Assembly (NCBI GenBank): GCA_016288635.1
Contig: JAEEKZ010000047.1
Location: forward strand, 1 to 56,927
From: Caryophanales bacterium
GTDB lineage: Bacteria > Bacillota_I > Bacilli_A > RF39 > UBA660
Length of the DNA stretch: 56,927 nt
Direction: 5' to 3'
Below are positions 20,643 through 56,920 of the stretch, one piece after another; the stretch's first letter is position 1; each line of letters begins with the position of its first letter. The notes beneath the pieces were generated by a model, which worked only from the letters and a program-made list of their open reading frames with translations, did not search any database and was not told where the DNA came from. The position numbers and the translations under genes were made by a program.

Positions 20643-22835
20643 TTAAGGATTCTCCTCAGGAGCAACATAGTCCTTATCCCACCAAGCATACAATGAGCCA
20701 GTGTAACTAAATTCGGTATTCATTCCAGCTTTTATCTCTCCAGTTGGATAAACTACCAAATAAGAAGCTCCACCACCTCGTCTAGAACAATATCCTTTAA
20801 AAGTATAACCACTTCTAAAATCTGTTGGCATATCCCATTCAGTTTCTCCTGCAGGAGCAATATCTGTTTTAAGATTATATATTGGTATATAATTATTACC
20901 ATCTATCTTATACCAGCCATCATCATAACGTTCATAAATTGCATTATCTCTTGTAAGCTCAATATCTATTTTATAATTTGAGAATTTTTGAGGATTGCTG
21001 CTATTTGGCTTAATGTAAATTGTTTTAGGTATTCCCGTGAATACAACTTCACTAAATCCATCAGTTGGTAAATCAACACTTTCTATTTTAGCGTCATTTA
21101 TTTTTATATATAATTTTAAATCACCACTAATACTTCCATCTAATTTTTTAATTGTCATTCTAAATGGTTGTGAAGATGAACCCGTTGGAGTATTAACGAA
21201 TAAATCAAGATTCTTATTATTTGTTATATATTGTTGACTAAATTCTCCATCTAATACCAATGATTTTAAACCATCTTCATCAAAATCAACACGTATACCA
21301 CTATCATAACCATTATCACTATTCGCATAGAATAAATCATCATTAATGCTAATAGGAATATATTTCTTCAAATCAGTAATAACATGATATGGTTTTTCAG
21401 CTGAACCATCAGATCTTATTCCATTTACAGTTTCATATACATAAGTATTGTATTTAAGGGAAATTGCAGGTCTTACACCAATTTCACTTTCCACATCAGA
21501 AGAAACCAAATAACCATAATCAGAAACAGAATAAACGCTAGCTGATGTTCTATCAAAATCAACTGGAGACATAGTCCAAAAACCATTATAACCGTCTATC
21601 AAATAATTATAGCCAGCTTTTGGATCACGACTATTATCATAAATCATATATACTTCATCTGCAGTAATTGTTGCGCCAGATATACCTACATTCTCTAATA
21701 ATTCATTACCTTGAACATAGTTAATTGTATGTGACACAGTGTATCTATCAGCCTGTTGTGAACAATACATTGTTTCTGGAGTATTAATACTGGCTTGTGT
21801 TGCAGTTTGACTAACTAAATCCTTGAAACAAACATAATTTCCTACACTTGGTCCACTGGCAACTTTTGCCCATTTTGAAGAGCAATTTGTTGTATCACCA
21901 AACAATACAGGCGTATTAGTACTTGGGTTCCACTCAATCTCAACAGGTTCTTGATCAGCCAACTGACTAAAATATGAAGTCATATCCGTATGATCTGTAT
22001 AAATTACAGTTTCTGTATTTGCATACATTTTTTTGACTGACTCAACAATATTTCCCAATCTTCTTTTGGGTCCATAACTAGTTACAGTTCCATCGCCAAT
22101 CATTGGTTCAGATCTATCATTACACCAATGTGTATCTTCAACGAAATAACTGACCGGTTTAATATTATCTATTAGAAACTCATCGATTTTTGCTTTTAAC
22201 ATTGAATTTTGCTCGACGGTTGTTTCTGGTAATTTATAAGTATAACCAACATATTCTTTTAAAGGAACATTATTAAAATATTCATTATATTTTGTTTTTC
22301 CAATACCATCTTTGTTTGTAACCGTCTTACACGATCCGTTTTCATCCGGTAAACCAACATATAGCAACTTAACGCCACCTGTTTCAGTTGTTCTTATTAT
22401 CTTCCAACATCTATCAGCAAATATAACATTATTATGCGTTGCAGTTTGATAATAAAAGAATACTGGGCTATTATAATCCATATAGTCTTTCGAAAACTTA
22501 TATACTTCATAGTTTTCATTTCTATGATGGTTTATACAATACTCGCCATCTTCTCCACTATTTTTATGACAATCAGGATGCTGATCTCTCTCATATAAAG
22601 CTATTAAAGCATCATACTTCTTAGAAATAACAGCAGAAAGCAATAAACCATCTTTACCTTTTACTTTTGCATTTAAATCTTCTCTAATATCTTCTGCTGA
22701 TTTTTGTACATTTCTTCTAGTATTAATATACTTTTCAAGTAAAGCAATCATTAATAGTAAAAACAAAACAACAAAAGTAATTATTATTGAGCTGGATATA
22801 AATCCCTTTTTATTTAATTTTTTTCTATTTTTCAT
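20643..22835 (-). CDS. Large secreted/anchored protein with pilin-like leader and InlB-type repeat
   Basis: A 730-residue protein. The N-terminus is a prepilin-like leader, KKLNKKGFISSSIIITF, followed by a hydrophobic stretch to about residue 34, but the Glu usual at +5 is Ser. The extracellular part begins with Cys-rich segments and FADRCWKIIRTTETGGVKLLY (about 135-160), a motif common in surface proteins of gut Firmicutes. Further on are WTMSPVDFD, SDVESEIGVRPAISL and beta-rich sequence. The C-terminus has one InlB-type (Listeria-Bacteroides) repeat unit with FRSGYTFKGYC and LYAWW. It follows the pilin-like gene by ten bases. Adhesion or a pilus-tip role is inferred. Confidence 0.65.
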   Translation of the reverse strand: MKNRKKLNKKGFISSSIIITFVVLFLLLMIALLEKYINTRRNVQKSAEDIREDLNAKVKGKDGLLLSAVISKKYDALIALYERDQHPDCHKNSGEDGEYCINHHRNENYEVYKFSKDYMDYNSPVFFYYQTATHNNVIFADRCWKIIRTTETGGVKLLYVGLPDENGSCKTVTNKDGIGKTKYNEYFNNVPLKEYVGYTYKLPETTVEQNSMLKAKIDEFLIDNIKPVSYFVEDTHWCNDRSEPMIGDGTVTSYGPKRRLGNIVESVKKMYANTETVIYTDHTDMTSYFSQLADQEPVEIEWNPSTNTPVLFGDTTNCSSKWAKVASGPSVGNYVCFKDLVSQTATQASINTPETMYCSQQADRYTVSHTINYVQGNELLENVGISGATITADEVYMIYDNSRDPKAGYNYLIDGYNGFWTMSPVDFDRTSASVYSVSDYGYLVSSDVESEIGVRPAISLKYNTYVYETVNGIRSDGSAEKPYHVITDLKKYIPISINDDLFYANSDNGYDSGIRVDFDEDGLKSLVLDGEFSQQYITNNKNLDLFVNTPTGSSSQPFRMTIKKLDGSISGDLKLYIKINDAKIESVDLPTDGFSEVVFTGIPKTIYIKPNSSNPQKFSNYKIDIELTRDNAIYERYDDGWYKIDGNNYIPIYNLKTDIAPAGETEWDMPTDFRSGYTFKGYCSRRGGGASYLVVYPTGEIKAGMNTEFSYTGSLYAWWDKDYVAPEENP

Positions 22836-22845
22836 ATCCTACCTC

Positions 22846-23553
22846 TTATTTATAACATGCTTCTGATTTATTAAACTCAAATGGAGAATAAATCCAGGCG
22901 TAGTATCTTGCACTTTTATTAGTAGACGAAAAAGCCTTAAAAGAAGCAACCAAAATATAATTATCAGAGCAATTTGCACTTATAGTTTTAATATATGTTC
23001 TTAATTCTGCAGGTAAATCATACAAAGCTTCTGAACAATATTTATTCTTATTAAACTTAGCAGCAGTTTCTCCTGCTTGACTTGCATAATATGAATCATT
23101 TGCTTGAGTTCTTTTTCCAACATATGTATCACTACACAATGTTAACCCATATTGCAAAGAATTTGACCACAATGCAAATTCTGGCTTAACAAGCAATAAA
23201 TGTTCTAATCCATATGATTGGGTTAAATCCGTAAAACCTGTTTTAAATTTTCTTATTTCATCAGAAGACATATTCATAAATAATTGTGGAGTTCCTATTC
23301 CAATTGGAACAACATAATTATCTGCCGCTATTGAAGTGGCATAATCAGGATTAACGTTGTTAACTTTTAAATAATCTGCAATTGCGTATAACTTAAATAT
23401 ATATGCAGTATCATCATAATAAACTCTTGTTTTCTCTCTTGATAAAGTTGTAGCGAATGATGAAAAGACACGCAAAAGTATAATGGTTACCATAACCATT
23501 ACAACAATCGTTTCAACCATTGCAAATCCTTTTTTATTCTTTATTAGTTTCAT
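22846..23553 (-). CDS. Type IV pilin-like protein
   Basis: A 235-residue protein from the preferred start. The class III signal is textbook: KNKKGFAMVETIVVMVMVTI, with Gly before the cleavage point, Phe+1 and Glu+5. A hydrophobic helix follows, then a globular domain with several Cys (LCSDTYVGKR, KYCSEALYD, SANCSDNY) and a last Cys two residues from the end. No prepilin peptidase, ATPase or PilC gene is in the window, so assembly would depend on genes elsewhere. The start is the ATG at 23553 with SD GGTGA five bases upstream; the ATG at 23565 coincides with the predicted transcription start. The 730-residue protein is its operon partner. Confidence 0.75.
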   Translation of the reverse strand: MKLIKNKKGFAMVETIVVMVMVTIILLRVFSSFATTLSREKTRVYYDDTAYIFKLYAIADYLKVNNVNPDYATSIAADNYVVPIGIGTPQLFMNMSSDEIRKFKTGFTDLTQSYGLEHLLLVKPEFALWSNSLQYGLTLCSDTYVGKRTQANDSYYASQAGETAAKFNKNKYCSEALYDLPAELRTYIKTISANCSDNYILVASFKAFSSTNKSARYYAWIYSPFEFNKSEACYK

Positions 23554-23571
23554 ACTATTCACCATATTATT

Positions 23572-50505: not shown

Positions 50506-51732
50506 CTACACATTCGAAGCAACAGAAAACTCTCTACTATCTAAATTTAAAGTATAATAAACATTCTCATTAGCTCCATATATTGTAATTATATCGTTAT
50601 ATGAATCATTTTCATTTGATGGTGGAATAACAATATTCCATGAACTAGCATTCATACCAACTCCATCAAACATATAGTCCATATCAACTACCTTTGATGT
50701 ATCCCAAGAACTTATATTAATTGAGAAATTAGCACTATTATATCCAGCATTTAAGAACATACTATGCATATTGGATACGTTAGTTGTTTTCAAAAAATTT
50801 AATCCTGAAATCGTTTTCAAACTTTTAAATTGTTTATTCTCATCCAAATCACTAAATAAATACGATGAATCGCTATTAGCAAAAATATGCCCTGTTCCAT
50901 TTCCTGCGATAGTAACAATCTTTTGTGTAGAGTCTAAATAGCAAGTAACTGATTCGTTTTCAGAATCACTACAATCCCATTTTTTACTTTCCTTTCCAGT
51001 AGGTTTATAACTATCTACAATATTAATATCTGTAATATACGCCTTTTGATTTTCTATCTCATTACTCCAACTGGAACCTTGAGATAAAGTTGAAATAACA
51101 TAATCATCCTTTGTTAATACTATCTTAGTATCTATTGTTTTTCCTGCATTCATAGATTGATCCGTATCAAGATTAATAAATGATAATTCAAATATCCAAT
51201 CCTGTTTTTCTCCTGCAGCAGAATATGATAATATTTCATAATCTTCAGCTATTAAAATAATTCCACTTTCAGTAGTTATATCAAATCCTTGAAGTTCATT
51301 ATTATAAGTTAATCCTTCAACTTCTGTTAAGTATTCACCATCGGGATTAACTACTTTTAATAGCAGCTCCGTTTCATGATTATTAGTAGTGTATTCAAAA
51401 TTATTTTTAATTATATGGAAATACACATCATAATAATCAGTAGCTTCTAAAGTTTTAGTATTAGCCCTTAAAATAGCGCTAGAAGTAGTTGTAGAACTAA
51501 CATTACCCATTCCTTGAGCAAAATTGCCTTCAAATACATCTAAAGCTAAATCTTCACCCTTAATAAATGATAAACTATCACTTTTATATGTTCTTATTCC
51601 GACATTTGTTACAGCTGCATCACCAACTGTAGACTGAAAATAGGCATATGATACAGTTATAACTAAAGTAAACATAACAACTATTAATATCATAATACTT
51701 AGTCTACTTTTTTTATCAATAACTTGATACAT
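50506..51732 (-). CDS. Secreted protein with BspA-like (DUF285) C-terminus
   Basis: A 408-residue exported protein. The N-terminus has a membrane or signal segment (SIMILIVVMFTLVITVSYAYF), a pattern also seen at the front of TasA/camelysin-like proteins. A beta-rich domain follows (about 35-240). Residues 240-400 resemble the DUF285/BspA repeats common in mycoplasma and gut Firmicutes surface proteins: NVSNMHSMFLNAG and SWDTSKVVDMDYMFDG. There is no LPxTG. It follows the DUF4272-like gene by 14 bases with SD AGGAGG. An envelope or host-contact role is inferred. Confidence 0.65.
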   Translation of the reverse strand: MYQVIDKKSRLSIMILIVVMFTLVITVSYAYFQSTVGDAAVTNVGIRTYKSDSLSFIKGEDLALDVFEGNFAQGMGNVSSTTTSSAILRANTKTLEATDYYDVYFHIIKNNFEYTTNNHETELLLKVVNPDGEYLTEVEGLTYNNELQGFDITTESGIILIAEDYEILSYSAAGEKQDWIFELSFINLDTDQSMNAGKTIDTKIVLTKDDYVISTLSQGSSWSNEIENQKAYITDINIVDSYKPTGKESKKWDCSDSENESVTCYLDSTQKIVTIAGNGTGHIFANSDSSYLFSDLDENKQFKSLKTISGLNFLKTTNVSNMHSMFLNAGYNSANFSINISSWDTSKVVDMDYMFDGVGMNASSWNIVIPPSNENDSYNDIITIYGANENVYYTLNLDSREFSVASNV

Positions 51733-52798: not shown

Positions 52799-53596
52799 TT
52801 AATTCTTTCTAACTCTTTCATACGGATTTCCTGCAGCCTTCATAGCAGCTTTATTGTCATACATTCTTGCATCCGCTTCATTTATCATAACCTCTAGATC
52901 ACTACACACAGTTCTATATGATGAACCCATCGCAGCTGAATATTGAGTTTGAGCAATAGATTGCCTGATTTCTTCAATTTTCCTAAAGAATAAATCCTCT
53001 GGAATGTTTTGACATACAGCAACAAACTCATCTCCACCACGTCTAAATAATTCTTTCTTACGAATTGATCTACGCATACATTCCGCTAAAGTGATTAATA
53101 AACGATCTCCCTCACTATGACCATAAGTATTATTGAAAAATCTTAAATCATTAGCATCCATGAATAACACACCGATATTATAACGAATACAAGGTTCATT
53201 AATTAATTCAATTAAAGTATTGTTATTCATTAATCCTGTTAGCTTATCTGTTTGTAAATCAGTTATTTTATCTCCAAGTTTTAATATGTTTCCTAAGAAT
53301 TGACTAATATATAATAATGCTCTTTTATCAAATATTTTTACAAACCTTGGTCTAATTATTTCGATTGAAGACACATCTGATATTTGTACTGTAACCGTAG
53401 CTTTAGGATCAGTAAAGCCATTTAACGAAATAGAGTCTTCAGGTCTATTTTGATCTTTATAGAAAATAATTCTTACATTTTTTGCACCAAAATACTGAGC
53501 AATAATATGCATAATTTTCATATAATATTCATCATCATAAAAATCTGTATACATTGCTTTGTTCAAGTTTGTATATAAATTGAAACGATTCCCCAT
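52799..53596 (-). CDS. GGDEF-domain protein (putative diguanylate cyclase)
   Basis: A 265-residue protein predicted to make cyclic di-GMP. The N-terminal sensor-like part (1-105) has IIAQYFGAKNVRIIFYK and no membrane segment. The GGDEF domain starts at DKLTGLMNNNTLIE (near 118), with FMDANDLRFFNNTYGH binding metal and substrate. The active site reads RRGGDEFVAVCQ, fully canonical. The inhibitory I-site RxxD five residues before it is RKKE, so product inhibition may be lacking. No EAL or PilZ gene is near. SD GGAAGGAG precedes the ATG, and it has its own weak promoter and terminator. Confidence 0.92.
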   Translation of the reverse strand: MGNRFNLYTNLNKAMYTDFYDDEYYMKIMHIIAQYFGAKNVRIIFYKDQNRPEDSISLNGFTDPKATVTVQISDVSSIEIIRPRFVKIFDKRALLYISQFLGNILKLGDKITDLQTDKLTGLMNNNTLIELINEPCIRYNIGVLFMDANDLRFFNNTYGHSEGDRLLITLAECMRRSIRKKELFRRGGDEFVAVCQNIPEDLFFRKIEEIRQSIAQTQYSAAMGSSYRTVCSDLEVMINEADARMYDNKAAMKAAGNPYERVRKN

Positions 53597-53666: not shown

Positions 53667-55112
53667 TTAAATTTCAGCAAATTCTTCGTTATTTTTTTCT
53701 TCTTTTTTGCTTTTTTCGTTCTTCTCTTTGCCTTTTTTCTTATTTTTCTTTCTATTATTTTTTGCAGGTTTAGAATTCACAACAATCTCGTCATCTAATT
53801 CATGAGTAACAGTCTCTTGTACAACAGGTTTTCTCTTTTTACTTTTTTTACTTAACAAAATAATAATAATTAAAAGTAAGAAAACAACTAAGCCAAATAA
53901 TCCATAAATGATTTTTAAAAACATATTGTTTTGTTTAATTAAAGATAATGTATATTCAGCTTCATAAGCTGCCATAGAATTATTATCCTTATCATAAACA
54001 TAGAATCCTTCTTTACCAGTATCTAAGTTCGTTCCATAAATGATACTCGTTTTAGATTTATCACTATATTTTAATACTTCGACTTTATTTCCAGATATAG
54101 TTTCATTAACCTTCTTATAATTTTCTAGTTCAACCGGCAAATTTTTATATGAGTCCTTATAAATAAACACAAAATCATTAGAAACTATTTCATTATATTT
54201 AGTATATTCACCATCTTTATAAATAAACAACTCAATATTACCTTCAGCATCCTTTAAGCCGACAAGATACATATCAACTGATTCGTTATAGAATGCCGGA
54301 ATATCAAATTCGCCAATCTTAATAGTTGATTCTTCAAAATCAAGAGGTTTCTTCAAATCAGTATTTTTTTTAATTACCACATAATCAGTTCCAGCAACTG
54401 TAACATTTATTGGATTACTATCCTTGACCTCAACATTTATTTTATAAACTCTTTCACTTCCATTTTGTGCTTTTACTGTAATAGAAATAACATTTAATCC
54501 TAAATTAACTTCTACTTCTCCATCACCGTGAACTGTAGCTTTATTATCATTTTTAGTGGCTACAATAGTTACACTTTTAGTATCTTCTGGAACTACTACA
54601 CTATAAGACAACGTGTCTTTATTAAATCCGGGAGTTAGCTCAAATCCATTAATAGCTAATTTCTTTAAATAATTATCTTTTGAATAACTAGCCTCAATTT
54701 GTTGTTGCGTTTTTATTTCAATATTTTTTCCAGATGACGACAAGTTCATTTCTTGGAAATTACTAAAGTGATATGCATCATAACTACCAACAGTTACTTT
54801 TGTATTTCCTGCTTTTAACGCTTTAAATTTAAACGTATAACTTTTTGAGGAAATACCTTTAGTTGAACTTCCAGCCATTGCAACTCCACCACTTTCAGCA
54901 GTTGAAGATTGCAATTTTAAATAGTTAGAATCATAATTTAGTTTCATTTCCCATGAACCTATATCACCACCAGATAATGTTACTGTTACAGTTATAGAAT
55001 TACCAACAGCAACAACTGATGGTGAAGCAACTGTTATTTTTCCAGAGCCAGCAAAAACAAGCGTCGGAAGCATTAATAACATTATGATTAATCCATAAAT
55101 TACTTTTTTCAT
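53667..55112 (-). CDS. Membrane-anchored cohesin-domain protein
   Basis: A 481-residue protein from the preferred start. After a signal peptide (KKVIYGLIIMLLMLPTLVFA), residues about 22-130 resemble a cohesin: a VGNSITVTVTLSGGDIGSWE strand pair, LNYDSNYLKL and YTFKFKALKAGNTKVTVGS. A cadherin-like beta-sandwich domain follows (YLKKLAINGFELTPGF ... VVVPEDTKSVTI). One transmembrane helix near 400-425 is followed by a Lys/Glu-rich cytoplasmic tail. The ATG at 55112 has SD AAAGGA. It lies ten bases after the dockerin-bearing autolysin gene, which suggests the two products meet on the surface. Confidence 0.75.
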   Translation of the reverse strand: MKKVIYGLIIMLLMLPTLVFAGSGKITVASPSVVAVGNSITVTVTLSGGDIGSWEMKLNYDSNYLKLQSSTAESGGVAMAGSSTKGISSKSYTFKFKALKAGNTKVTVGSYDAYHFSNFQEMNLSSSGKNIEIKTQQQIEASYSKDNYLKKLAINGFELTPGFNKDTLSYSVVVPEDTKSVTIVATKNDNKATVHGDGEVEVNLGLNVISITVKAQNGSERVYKINVEVKDSNPINVTVAGTDYVVIKKNTDLKKPLDFEESTIKIGEFDIPAFYNESVDMYLVGLKDAEGNIELFIYKDGEYTKYNEIVSNDFVFIYKDSYKNLPVELENYKKVNETISGNKVEVLKYSDKSKTSIIYGTNLDTGKEGFYVYDKDNNSMAAYEAEYTLSLIKQNNMFLKIIYGLFGLVVFLLLIIIILLSKKSKKRKPVVQETVTHELDDEIVVNSKPAKNNRKKNKKKGKEKNEKSKKEEKNNEEFAEI

Positions 55113-55122
55113 GTTATCCTTT

Positions 55123-56892
55123 CTATTCAATTGTATATGTTCCCAATAAATTTCTTTGAATTTGTAATAAGTCTAATGCATTAATTATGTTATCACCAGA
55201 TGTATCTCCAGCTTTTCCATAAGCATTTTCTAATTTAAATGTACCCAATATATTCTTCTGAACTTGTAATAAATCTAGTGCATTTATTTTTCCATCTCCA
55301 GAAGTATCACCTTTAATAACTATTGAATATTCTTCAGTAGTTTCTCCATTTCCAACGGAAACAACCATACCAGTGCCAACTTCACCTGATGTTAGTTCTT
55401 TTCCATTATTAGTTACTTTAACCTCAGCACCAACTGCTTGAAGATCCGCAATTAATTCTTCAACTTTTCCACCTAAAGACATGCTCTTAATAAATCCAGC
55501 CTCGGTAGTAATTCCCGCGGTAGTAATCATTGTACTAACTGGTACTACAACTTTTTCTTCAGTCTCTACTGGAGTATCTTGCTCAGGAGAAGTTTGTTCT
55601 GGCTCATCAGGAGGAAGATTTTCGGTTCCACTTGCACTATTCGTAACTTCCTGTTCCATATTTAAATAAACAGGAATATAGAAATCAAATGGTAATTCTA
55701 ATAAATCCATACTCTTGTATGAAAAATATGATGATTTAGATTCACTAGATGGAGCATTTAAATTAGTCATATATTGGTGAATATATAATTTGGACATATT
55801 CGTTGGTGCAACATTAAACTTTTGTAAATAGTTAGTATATTGACCTTTAGTAATATAACTAGATGATAATAACTCAGAACCTCCGGAAATTGCCTTTTGT
55901 AAAGAATCCCATCCACGATTTTTTGCAGCATTTAATCCACAATAAGTAGTTCCTTTTGTTGTTGCACATGAATCTGATACACCAATATTATAGAAATTAT
56001 AATATCCTTTGTATGTATCTCCGTATGTTTCAGATGTATATACACCACTATATAAATTAAATAAAGTATCTTTATTTCCTAACTCTTGTAATATTCTTGT
56101 TGATAAAAATATTGGATTAACATCAGTTTCTTTTCCAGACGCATTTATAACAGCTGCCAAATCATTACCTATTCCTAAATGATAATTATAAAAATTTGAA
56201 TTCTTAATTATTTGCTTAATACCAGCTGGGTAGGTTTCTTCAAGAGATGCTGAATATTTAAGATATTCGAATTGGAACATAGTCTTTTCTTCAAACCAAT
56301 TTCTTGGATCAACATATTTAGCAACTGCTTTCTTACTTGCAGGATGCCATTTAGATGTACTACTATAAGCACTTTTACAAGTTCTATCTATCATTTCCTC
56401 ATTATCTGTATATATATAACTTTCTCCACAAGCACTTTCATTTTTAACAACTGATTCAAAATCTAAATTTGTTATTATTGCATGGAAATTCCATGTTGGA
56501 TGTTGATTCTTTAAAGTACATAATCCTTCCCAATAACTTTGAGGGAATCCCAAATCTTTCATTTGAGCTTCGCATTCACTATTAGCCTCGCTACTATATT
56601 CAACTATTTCTTTTAAACTTACATATGACTTACAAATATACGCCACTTGTGTTCCGTAATTAACCTTATACCAGCCATCCGAACATCCTTTTTCATCAGG
56701 AACTACATTTTCATCAGCAAGAGGAATACTTGCTCCTTCATTCAATCGTTTAATAAGTTCATAATTAGTTCCTGGCCCTTTTCTAACAGCAACGCCACTC
56801 GTGTTTAAAACAACGTTATAGCTAGTTGCTTTAACATCACAAAAAGTGAAAATCAAAAAGAAAATTAACAACATATAAATTATCTTTTTCAT
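55123..56892 (-). CDS. Secreted glucosaminidase-like autolysin with SH3b and dockerin domains
   Basis: A 589-residue exported enzyme. Signal peptide (KKIIYMLLIFFLIFTFCDVKA), SH3b wall-binding domain (about 25-90, GVAVRKGPGTNYELIKRL), then a glucosaminidase-like catalytic region with HPTWNFHAIITNLDF, NPIFLSTRILQELG (Glu as likely acid) and YYNFYNIGVSDS. A Glu/Pro/Thr linker and a small beta domain follow. It ends with two dockerin-like calcium repeats, GDTSGDGKINALDLLQVQ and GDTSGDNIINALDLLQIQ. The ATG at 56892 has SD AAGGAG; an ATG six codons earlier lies upstream of or at the predicted transcription start. It heads the operon with the cohesin protein. Confidence 0.85.
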   Translation of the reverse strand: MKKIIYMLLIFFLIFTFCDVKATSYNVVLNTSGVAVRKGPGTNYELIKRLNEGASIPLADENVVPDEKGCSDGWYKVNYGTQVAYICKSYVSLKEIVEYSSEANSECEAQMKDLGFPQSYWEGLCTLKNQHPTWNFHAIITNLDFESVVKNESACGESYIYTDNEEMIDRTCKSAYSSTSKWHPASKKAVAKYVDPRNWFEEKTMFQFEYLKYSASLEETYPAGIKQIIKNSNFYNYHLGIGNDLAAVINASGKETDVNPIFLSTRILQELGNKDTLFNLYSGVYTSETYGDTYKGYYNFYNIGVSDSCATTKGTTYCGLNAAKNRGWDSLQKAISGGSELLSSSYITKGQYTNYLQKFNVAPTNMSKLYIHQYMTNLNAPSSESKSSYFSYKSMDLLELPFDFYIPVYLNMEQEVTNSASGTENLPPDEPEQTSPEQDTPVETEEKVVVPVSTMITTAGITTEAGFIKSMSLGGKVEELIADLQAVGAEVKVTNNGKELTSGEVGTGMVVSVGNGETTEEYSIVIKGDTSGDGKINALDLLQVQKNILGTFKLENAYGKAGDTSGDNIINALDLLQIQRNLLGTYTIE

Positions 56893-56914
56893 TACGTTAC
56901 TCCTTACCATTTTA

Positions 56915-56920
56915 ATTATA
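56915..56920 (-). promoter_or_regulatory. -10 of autolysin/cohesin operon promoter
   Basis: Minus-strand TATAAT (56920-56915). The -35 would lie beyond the right edge of the window. Confidence 0.55.

Follow-up and report, generated by a model that had tools for sequence, protein, structure and literature searches.

How might a bacterium with a small genome keep an exported wall hydrolase at its own surface? The question is raised by two genes on the minus strand of contig JAEEKZ010000047.1 (GenBank assembly GCA_016288635.1, a Caryophanales bacterium of the RF39 lineage), located within the last 3.3 kb of the 56,927-nucleotide (nt) stretch that was analyzed and is termed here the window. The first gene encodes a secreted glucosaminidase ending in a type I dockerin, and the second a single-pass membrane protein carrying a cohesin, termed here the anchor. 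We conclude that the two proteins probably form a one-to-one membrane dock of the calcium type that holds a wall hydrolase, is not part of a cellulosome and would serve the remodeling of the cell's own wall. That the dockerin and the neighboring cohesin dock specifically appears highly likely from modeling and sequence comparison. An earlier sequence-only reading of the window had proposed a minimal surface docking system for peptidoglycan remodeling, and this proposal is supported here as the best reading, with binding and remodeling as its predicted components. The enzyme gene and its parts lie at the following window coordinates.

55123..56892, minus strand: gene 1, secreted glucosaminidase of 589 residues with a bacterial SH3 (SH3b) domain and a C-terminal dockerin (open reading frame calls, Pfam, PDB)
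56827..56892, minus strand: signal peptide, about residues 1-22 (read from the sequence: KK, hydrophobic core, polar end)
56617..56799, minus strand: bacterial SH3 domain, residues 32-92 (PF08239, 33.4 bits; SH3_3, 5e-08)
55663..56550, minus strand: SagB/Atl-like glucosaminidase domain, about residues 115-410 (PDB and NCBIfam similarity, family hidden Markov model)
56083..56085, minus strand: Glu270, putative catalytic acid, in ILQELGN (conservation and alignment with Atl)
55144..55314, minus strand: type I dockerin, residues 527-583, with two calcium-type loops, DTSGDGKINALD and DTSGDNIINALD (PF00404, 49.9 bits in the genome scan)

The enzyme starts at ATG 56892, or alternatively at 56910, stops at 55123, and is composed of a signal peptide, the SH3b domain, which is a probable wall-binding module, the glucosaminidase domain, a small linker domain and the C-terminal dockerin. 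In a PDB search, the glucosaminidase domain matched the structures of S. aureus Atl, SagB and AtlE (best match 6fxo, E 2e-11), and it is on these structures that the similarity rests, PF01832 (GH73-type) not being matched at E 0.001 in the Pfam scan. The NCBIfam SagB model NF052642 scored 58.9 bits on the enzyme, far below its equivalog cut-off of 425 bits, and the protein is not classified as SagB. The position of Glu270 is occupied by Glu in 58 of 59 aligned relatives and corresponds in the alignment to the Glu in the LLETG motif of Atl. The enzyme is a putative peptidoglycan hydrolase and would cleave the peptidoglycan of its own cell. At the protein level, Dockerin_1 was matched with 44.3 bits against a cut-off of 22.9 (E 2.1e-11, residues 527-583), and the repeats, GDTSGDGKINALDLLQ and GDTSGDNIINALDLLQ, both carry the D-x-S-x-D loop residues, from which a calcium dependence of docking may be expected. 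The sequence-only reading had quoted these same repeats as the end of a secreted glucosaminidase followed ten bases further by a membrane protein, and both statements proved accurate: exactly 10 nt separate the stop of the enzyme from the ATG of the anchor at 55112, and the two genes are probably carried on one message. The anchor is organized as follows.

53667..55112, minus strand: gene 2, membrane anchor with cohesin, 481 residues, ATG at 55112 (AlphaFold predicted local distance difference test, pLDDT, 87.4)
54705..55049, minus strand: cohesin domain, about residues 22-136 (PF00963 and fold)
54429..54665, minus strand: Cadherin-like beta-sandwich, residues 150-228 (PF12733, 43.2 bits)
53961..54419, minus strand: undescribed conserved beta domain, about residues 232-384, termed 'mid', the hallmark of the anchor family
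53835..53915, minus strand: single transmembrane helix, residues 400-426 (sequence; AlphaFold helix 385-425)
53670..53834, minus strand: Lys/Arg-rich disordered tail, residues 427-481, predicted cytoplasmic (sequence; pLDDT < 50)

A signal peptide precedes the cohesin, and the three ectodomains fold confidently in AlphaFold (pLDDT mostly > 93). The helix at 385-425 followed by the basic tail agrees with the single membrane pass described in the sequence-only reading. The cohesin assignment exceeds the Pfam cut-off by a small margin: PF00963 scored 27.4 bits at 54801-55040 in the genome scan and 29.0 bits (E 1.4e-06) on the isolated domain, for a cut-off of 24.1, and the match, lost to filters in a whole-protein HMMER scan, was recovered by scanning the domain alone. 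In a PDB fold search with the docked model described below, the cohesin of C. perfringens GH84C ranked first (2w1n, 2jh2; template modeling score, TM-score, by target at most 0.64), followed by type II cohesins. A search with the full anchor model returned mostly generic beta-sandwich and antibody folds at low TM-scores, and only its domain-length matches to cohesins (TM-score 0.63-0.67) were used. The domain is thus grouped with cohesins, as had been proposed, and not with unrelated beta-sandwiches. The 'mid' domain gave nothing above the Pfam cut-off and no convincing relative in a PDB sequence search. The Pfam scan detected neither a carbohydrate-binding module (CBM) nor a CAAX-protease family match in the anchor, which, being single-pass, is not a partner of the SpdC type.

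Is the adjacency of the two genes more than an accident of this contig? In the window genome (a 1.14-Mb assembly, 89.5% complete), the sole dockerin and the sole cohesin matches are those of this pair, with no further copy of either. We surveyed 98 genomes from 98 genera of the family and found a dockerin in 75 and a Pfam cohesin in 50 of them; a dockerin protein adjoining an anchor with Cadherin-like and 'mid' domains was present in 61 genera (60 genomes besides that of the window), and in four further genomes the pair was partial or cut by contig ends. Such a recurrence argues that the adjacency is not due to chance. In nearly all family pairs the enzyme gene precedes that of the anchor, and the median gap is 12 nt. 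L130 (genome G015) displays the reversed gene order, its dockerin being located on an M6 peptidase with GLUG motifs. In one genome (G060) the enzyme-anchor pair occurs twice, as similar copies located on separate contigs (L125 and L126). Second, separate pairs of a dockerin protein and a cohesin protein, with Cadherin-like repeats or Big_2 instead of an enzyme, were observed at L168, L169, L170 and L134.

The anchor also reaches beyond the family: a profile of 'mid' found it in 33 of the 392 phylum genomes searched. Two further families of the same class are among these, their genomes being 1.3-3.2 Mb in size, and in most of them the anchor again adjoins a dockerin protein. A search of genome contigs with the glucosaminidase alignment also recovered dockerin pairs in metagenome-assembled genomes (MAGs) of an Oscillospiraceae and other Clostridia (L254, L230 and L253), and the named relatives in its records were uncultured Bacilli, 'Mollicutes' and Mycoplasma-like MAGs, a large share of them originating from rabbit gut or other animal sources. 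A genome-contig search with a single anchor protein as query gave no match. The family probably belongs to the RF39-like gut Bacilli, in line with its small, peptidoglycan-positive genome (PMC10868615, PMC7301438).

The evidence for docking itself comes from four sides. At L095, both genes lie in one frame and, when the TAA stop is read as a residue, yield a natural dockerin-linker-cohesin chain, which AlphaFold modeled from an alignment combining natural read-through chains with separate domains. Both domains reached a pLDDT of 95-98, the linker 51-70, and the predicted template modeling score (pTM) of the chain was 0.81; on a rough estimate, unplaced domains would give 0.50-0.51 and well-placed ones about 0.74. 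Since 0.81 lies above the level expected of unplaced domains, the two domains are predicted to be docked, so that the complex presumed in the sequence-only reading is also obtained by modeling.

Second, dockerin and anchor N-terminal domain vary together. Distance matrices from 54 loci, compared by Mantel tests with 1000 permutations, gave a correlation of 0.72 between these two domains and a partial correlation of 0.69 with four other domains held constant (0/1000 permutations). The distances of the dockerin were hardly related to those of its own enzyme (0.02), the Cadherin-like domain (-0.01) or 'mid' (0.05), and weakly to those of its own adjacent linker domain (0.15). The dockerin-cohesin correlation was 0.35 inside the canonical class and 0.63 outside it, and 0.61 when distances were taken from pairwise alignments. 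Third, when repeat 1 is compared with repeat 2 at twelve recognition positions, identity is 78% if both come from one protein but 38% if they come from different ones, and symmetric recognition residues are considered a sign of a dual-binding dockerin (PMC12484212). Finally, the anchors of L313 and L314 start directly at the Cadherin-like domain with no adjacent enzyme, and no dockerin was found in either genome, that of L313 being a single-contig 3.2-Mb assembly.

What does the dock hold? The cargo is nearly always a wall hydrolase, from at least three lineages: a SagB-like glucosaminidase in the window and most relatives, a PF01832 glucosaminidase at L111, L117, L306, L307, L311 and L316, and a GH25 enzyme at L309. 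L111 and L117 had been candidates for a non-glucosaminidase cargo and were rejected as such, both being PF01832 glucosaminidases of the other lineage. The second pair of one genome (L320) carries a metallo-beta-lactamase-fold cargo. Since enzymes are exchanged with dockerin and anchor left in place, what is conserved would be a position and not a particular enzyme contact. Of the 80 named loci, 26 contain a cluster of LytR-CpsA-Psr proteins, and at others a GT4 transferase, UppP/BacA or a protein with a sulfatase fold lies close to the pair; LytR-CpsA-Psr, GT4 and UppP/BacA are wall-synthesis neighbors and were counted in favor of wall docking.

In the mechanism that we propose, the exported enzyme would have no membrane anchor itself, its C-terminal calcium-type dockerin being caught by the N-terminal cohesin of the single-pass anchor, whose Cadherin-like and 'mid' domains may form a stalk lifting the cohesin slightly above the membrane. 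The hydrolase would thereby be retained where the wall faces the membrane, its SH3b domain touching the wall, instead of being lost to the medium, and could trim the glycan strands of peptidoglycan, whether new or old. Across many related bacteria the pair reappears, its plug and socket varying in concert, so that the joint of plant-fiber-degrading machines has apparently been reused on the cell's own wall. Three sortase matches (PF04203) are present in the window genome (L173-L175; G000:C25, C58 and C21), so that covalent anchoring may be available; the enzyme nonetheless has a docking partner.

Several observations weigh against this proposal. The pair is missing from some family genomes, partly through assembly incompleteness, and the M6 peptidase cargo of L130 is not a wall hydrolase. 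The docking prediction concerns one matched pair, L095, judged from pTM and pLDDT. On a tree of the other domains, the dockerin class underwent at least 12 changes and the cohesin class 9, the classes, which were defined after viewing the sequences, being scattered; four well-supported independent pairs could be placed on it, all four concordant in most pairings (p 0.125), a number too small for proof. The co-evolving segments adjoin on the DNA, so that co-transfer may contribute to the correlation. Lachnospiraceae/Clostridiales loci (L212, L222, L223, L234, L235 and L240-L244) share the gene order with an enzyme that lacks a dockerin and ends in a Cadherin-like domain, and the N-terminal domain of these clostridial anchors, which precedes Cadherin-like, 'mid' and transmembrane parts, is weakly cohesin-like and falls below the Pfam cohesin cut-off (18 bits for L234). 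At L161 (G089), an intact cohesin anchor stands beside an enzyme without dockerin, which has at least six SH3 repeats and a split glucosaminidase match. From these loci it follows that the anchor can exist dockerin-free and that 'mid' must act beyond docking. Lastly, in about a third of the lineages the N-terminal domain is not recognized as a cohesin.

The alternative that survives best is a regulatory complex resembling S. aureus SagB-SpdC, in which the anchor would dock the enzyme chiefly to control where it cuts, and hence strand length or the release of new strands. SagB, the glucosaminidase of a 'peptidoglycan release complex', is the nearest curated family of the enzyme, and SpdC binds SagB and sets product length (review PMC12272431). 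Moreover, the membrane-adjacent 'mid' is the most conserved part of the anchor, more so than a spacer needs, and it persists in L313 and L314, which have neither cohesin nor enzyme. The anchor, however, shows no sequence relation to SpdC, a multi-pass protein of the CAAX-protease family, and the presence of GH25 or another glucosaminidase lineage as cargo argues against a dedicated allosteric regulator. An SpdC-like role would be compatible with the proposed dock; as the chief function of the anchor we consider it a real but minority possibility.

An absence of binding between the two domains, with the dockerin serving only as a calcium-stabilized cap and the cohesin-like domain binding a wall or host ligand, is unlikely. 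The clostridial anchors that keep their N-terminal domain without any dockerin, together with the dockerin-less L161 and its cohesin, would fit such an arrangement, whereas the AlphaFold docking, the specific co-variation, the symmetry of the repeats and the joint loss of dockerin and cohesin all speak for mutual binding. Equally improbable is a vestige or minor offshoot of a cellulosome or mucinolysome that degrades foreign polymers (food, mucin or the walls of other bacteria), although cohesins and dockerins are best known from such machines, record titles place relatives in the gut and some relatives carry up to 12 dockerins. The window assembly contains one cohesin and one dockerin with no CBM and no multi-cohesin scaffold, nearly every genus has a wall hydrolase as cargo, as the sequence-only reading had assumed for the window, and the extra dockerins of multi-dockerin relatives reside in other proteins and have different motifs. 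The sharing of one anchor among many cargoes in these relatives was rejected, their other dockerins having different motifs or belonging to separate pairs. Least probable of all is that the dockerin-cohesin correlation is a linkage artefact of one DNA block transferred with both segments, which would suit their spacing of about 100 nt and the scattered, repeatedly changing classes but not the flanking linker and Cadherin-like domains, which hardly follow the dockerin, nor the repeat symmetry inside it.

Returning to the membrane dock, the lineages without a recognizable cohesin raise the question of what receives their dockerins. In lineages with KNxIM, RQxLL or other motifs, the anchor N-terminal domain is shorter, immunoglobulin (Ig)-like and not recognized as a cohesin, either through divergence or through replacement of the domain, and at L104, L105, L107, L109, L112, L136, L149, L307 and L311 such short N-termini neighbor an enzyme with a symmetric type I dockerin. 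From sequence comparison, these Ig-like N-termini are possible non-cohesin dockerin receptors, and an Ig-like domain docking a genuine type I dockerin would represent a new class of receptor. We advance only tentatively the broader idea that the pair is a general, fast-diversifying lock-and-key keeping wall hydrolases private, each lineage having its own matched pair and about a third an Ig-like receptor in place of a cohesin.

Among the other genes of the window, all on the minus strand, a GGDEF diguanylate cyclase (52799-53596) lies about 70 nt downstream of the pair. A protein with an N-terminal hydrophobic segment and DUF285 (Pfam: Mycoplasma protein, function unknown) is encoded at 50506-51732. 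The open reading frame at 22846-23565 has a pseudopilin-like N-terminus, KKGFAMVETIVVMVMV, and the large one next to it (20643-22835) has a similar KKGF start.

How does the pair compare with known systems? With the cellulosome pairs of C. thermocellum, R. flavefaciens and others it shares the cohesin fold and a type I dockerin whose two calcium loops are symmetric, as are its recognition residues, a trait of dual-binding dockerins (PMC12484212). In contrast to cellulosomes, the window genome has a single cohesin and a single dockerin, and its assembly revealed no multi-cohesin or CBM scaffold, no plant-polysaccharide enzyme and no set of several dockerin-bearing polysaccharide-degrading enzymes; the anchor is held by a transmembrane helix and not by sortase or SLH anchoring, and the cargo is a wall hydrolase. 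The R. flavefaciens ScaE, a single sortase-anchored cohesin, binds the XDoc protein RflaF_05439 with two NlpC/P60 modules (PMC3573020) and thus likewise joins a lone surface cohesin to a dockerin protein with peptidoglycan-hydrolase-like modules, but it belongs to a very large cellulosome, mainly anchors ScaB, is covalently attached to the wall and is not described as a gene pair with its cargo. In S. aureus SagB-SpdC a related glucosaminidase domain is held at the membrane by a partner, which is in that case a multi-pass CAAX-protease family protein, with no cohesin or dockerin involved; SagB also has a transmembrane helix of its own. The C. perfringens cohesins (GH84C, 2w1n, 2jh2) are the closest solved folds and are likewise single cohesins outside cellulosomes, but are carried by a secreted glycoside hydrolase and not by a membrane anchor, and to our knowledge their cargo is not known to consist of wall hydrolases. 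In the literature, subscription journals being largely outside the search, no description was found of a cohesin-dockerin pair that stands alone and serves a wall hydrolase. In small-genome, largely uncultured gut Bacilli, among which it is conserved, the pair would explain concretely how autolysins may be kept at the membrane, and it extends to relatives with larger genomes and to Clostridia. Its dozens of natural matched pairs could be used to decipher how cohesins and dockerins achieve specificity and to construct orthogonal connectors, and 'mid' is a new conserved anchor domain with no known relatives. The cohesin-dockerin joint, taught as the means by which fiber-degrading machines are assembled, would here act as a stand-alone, one-to-one membrane dock.

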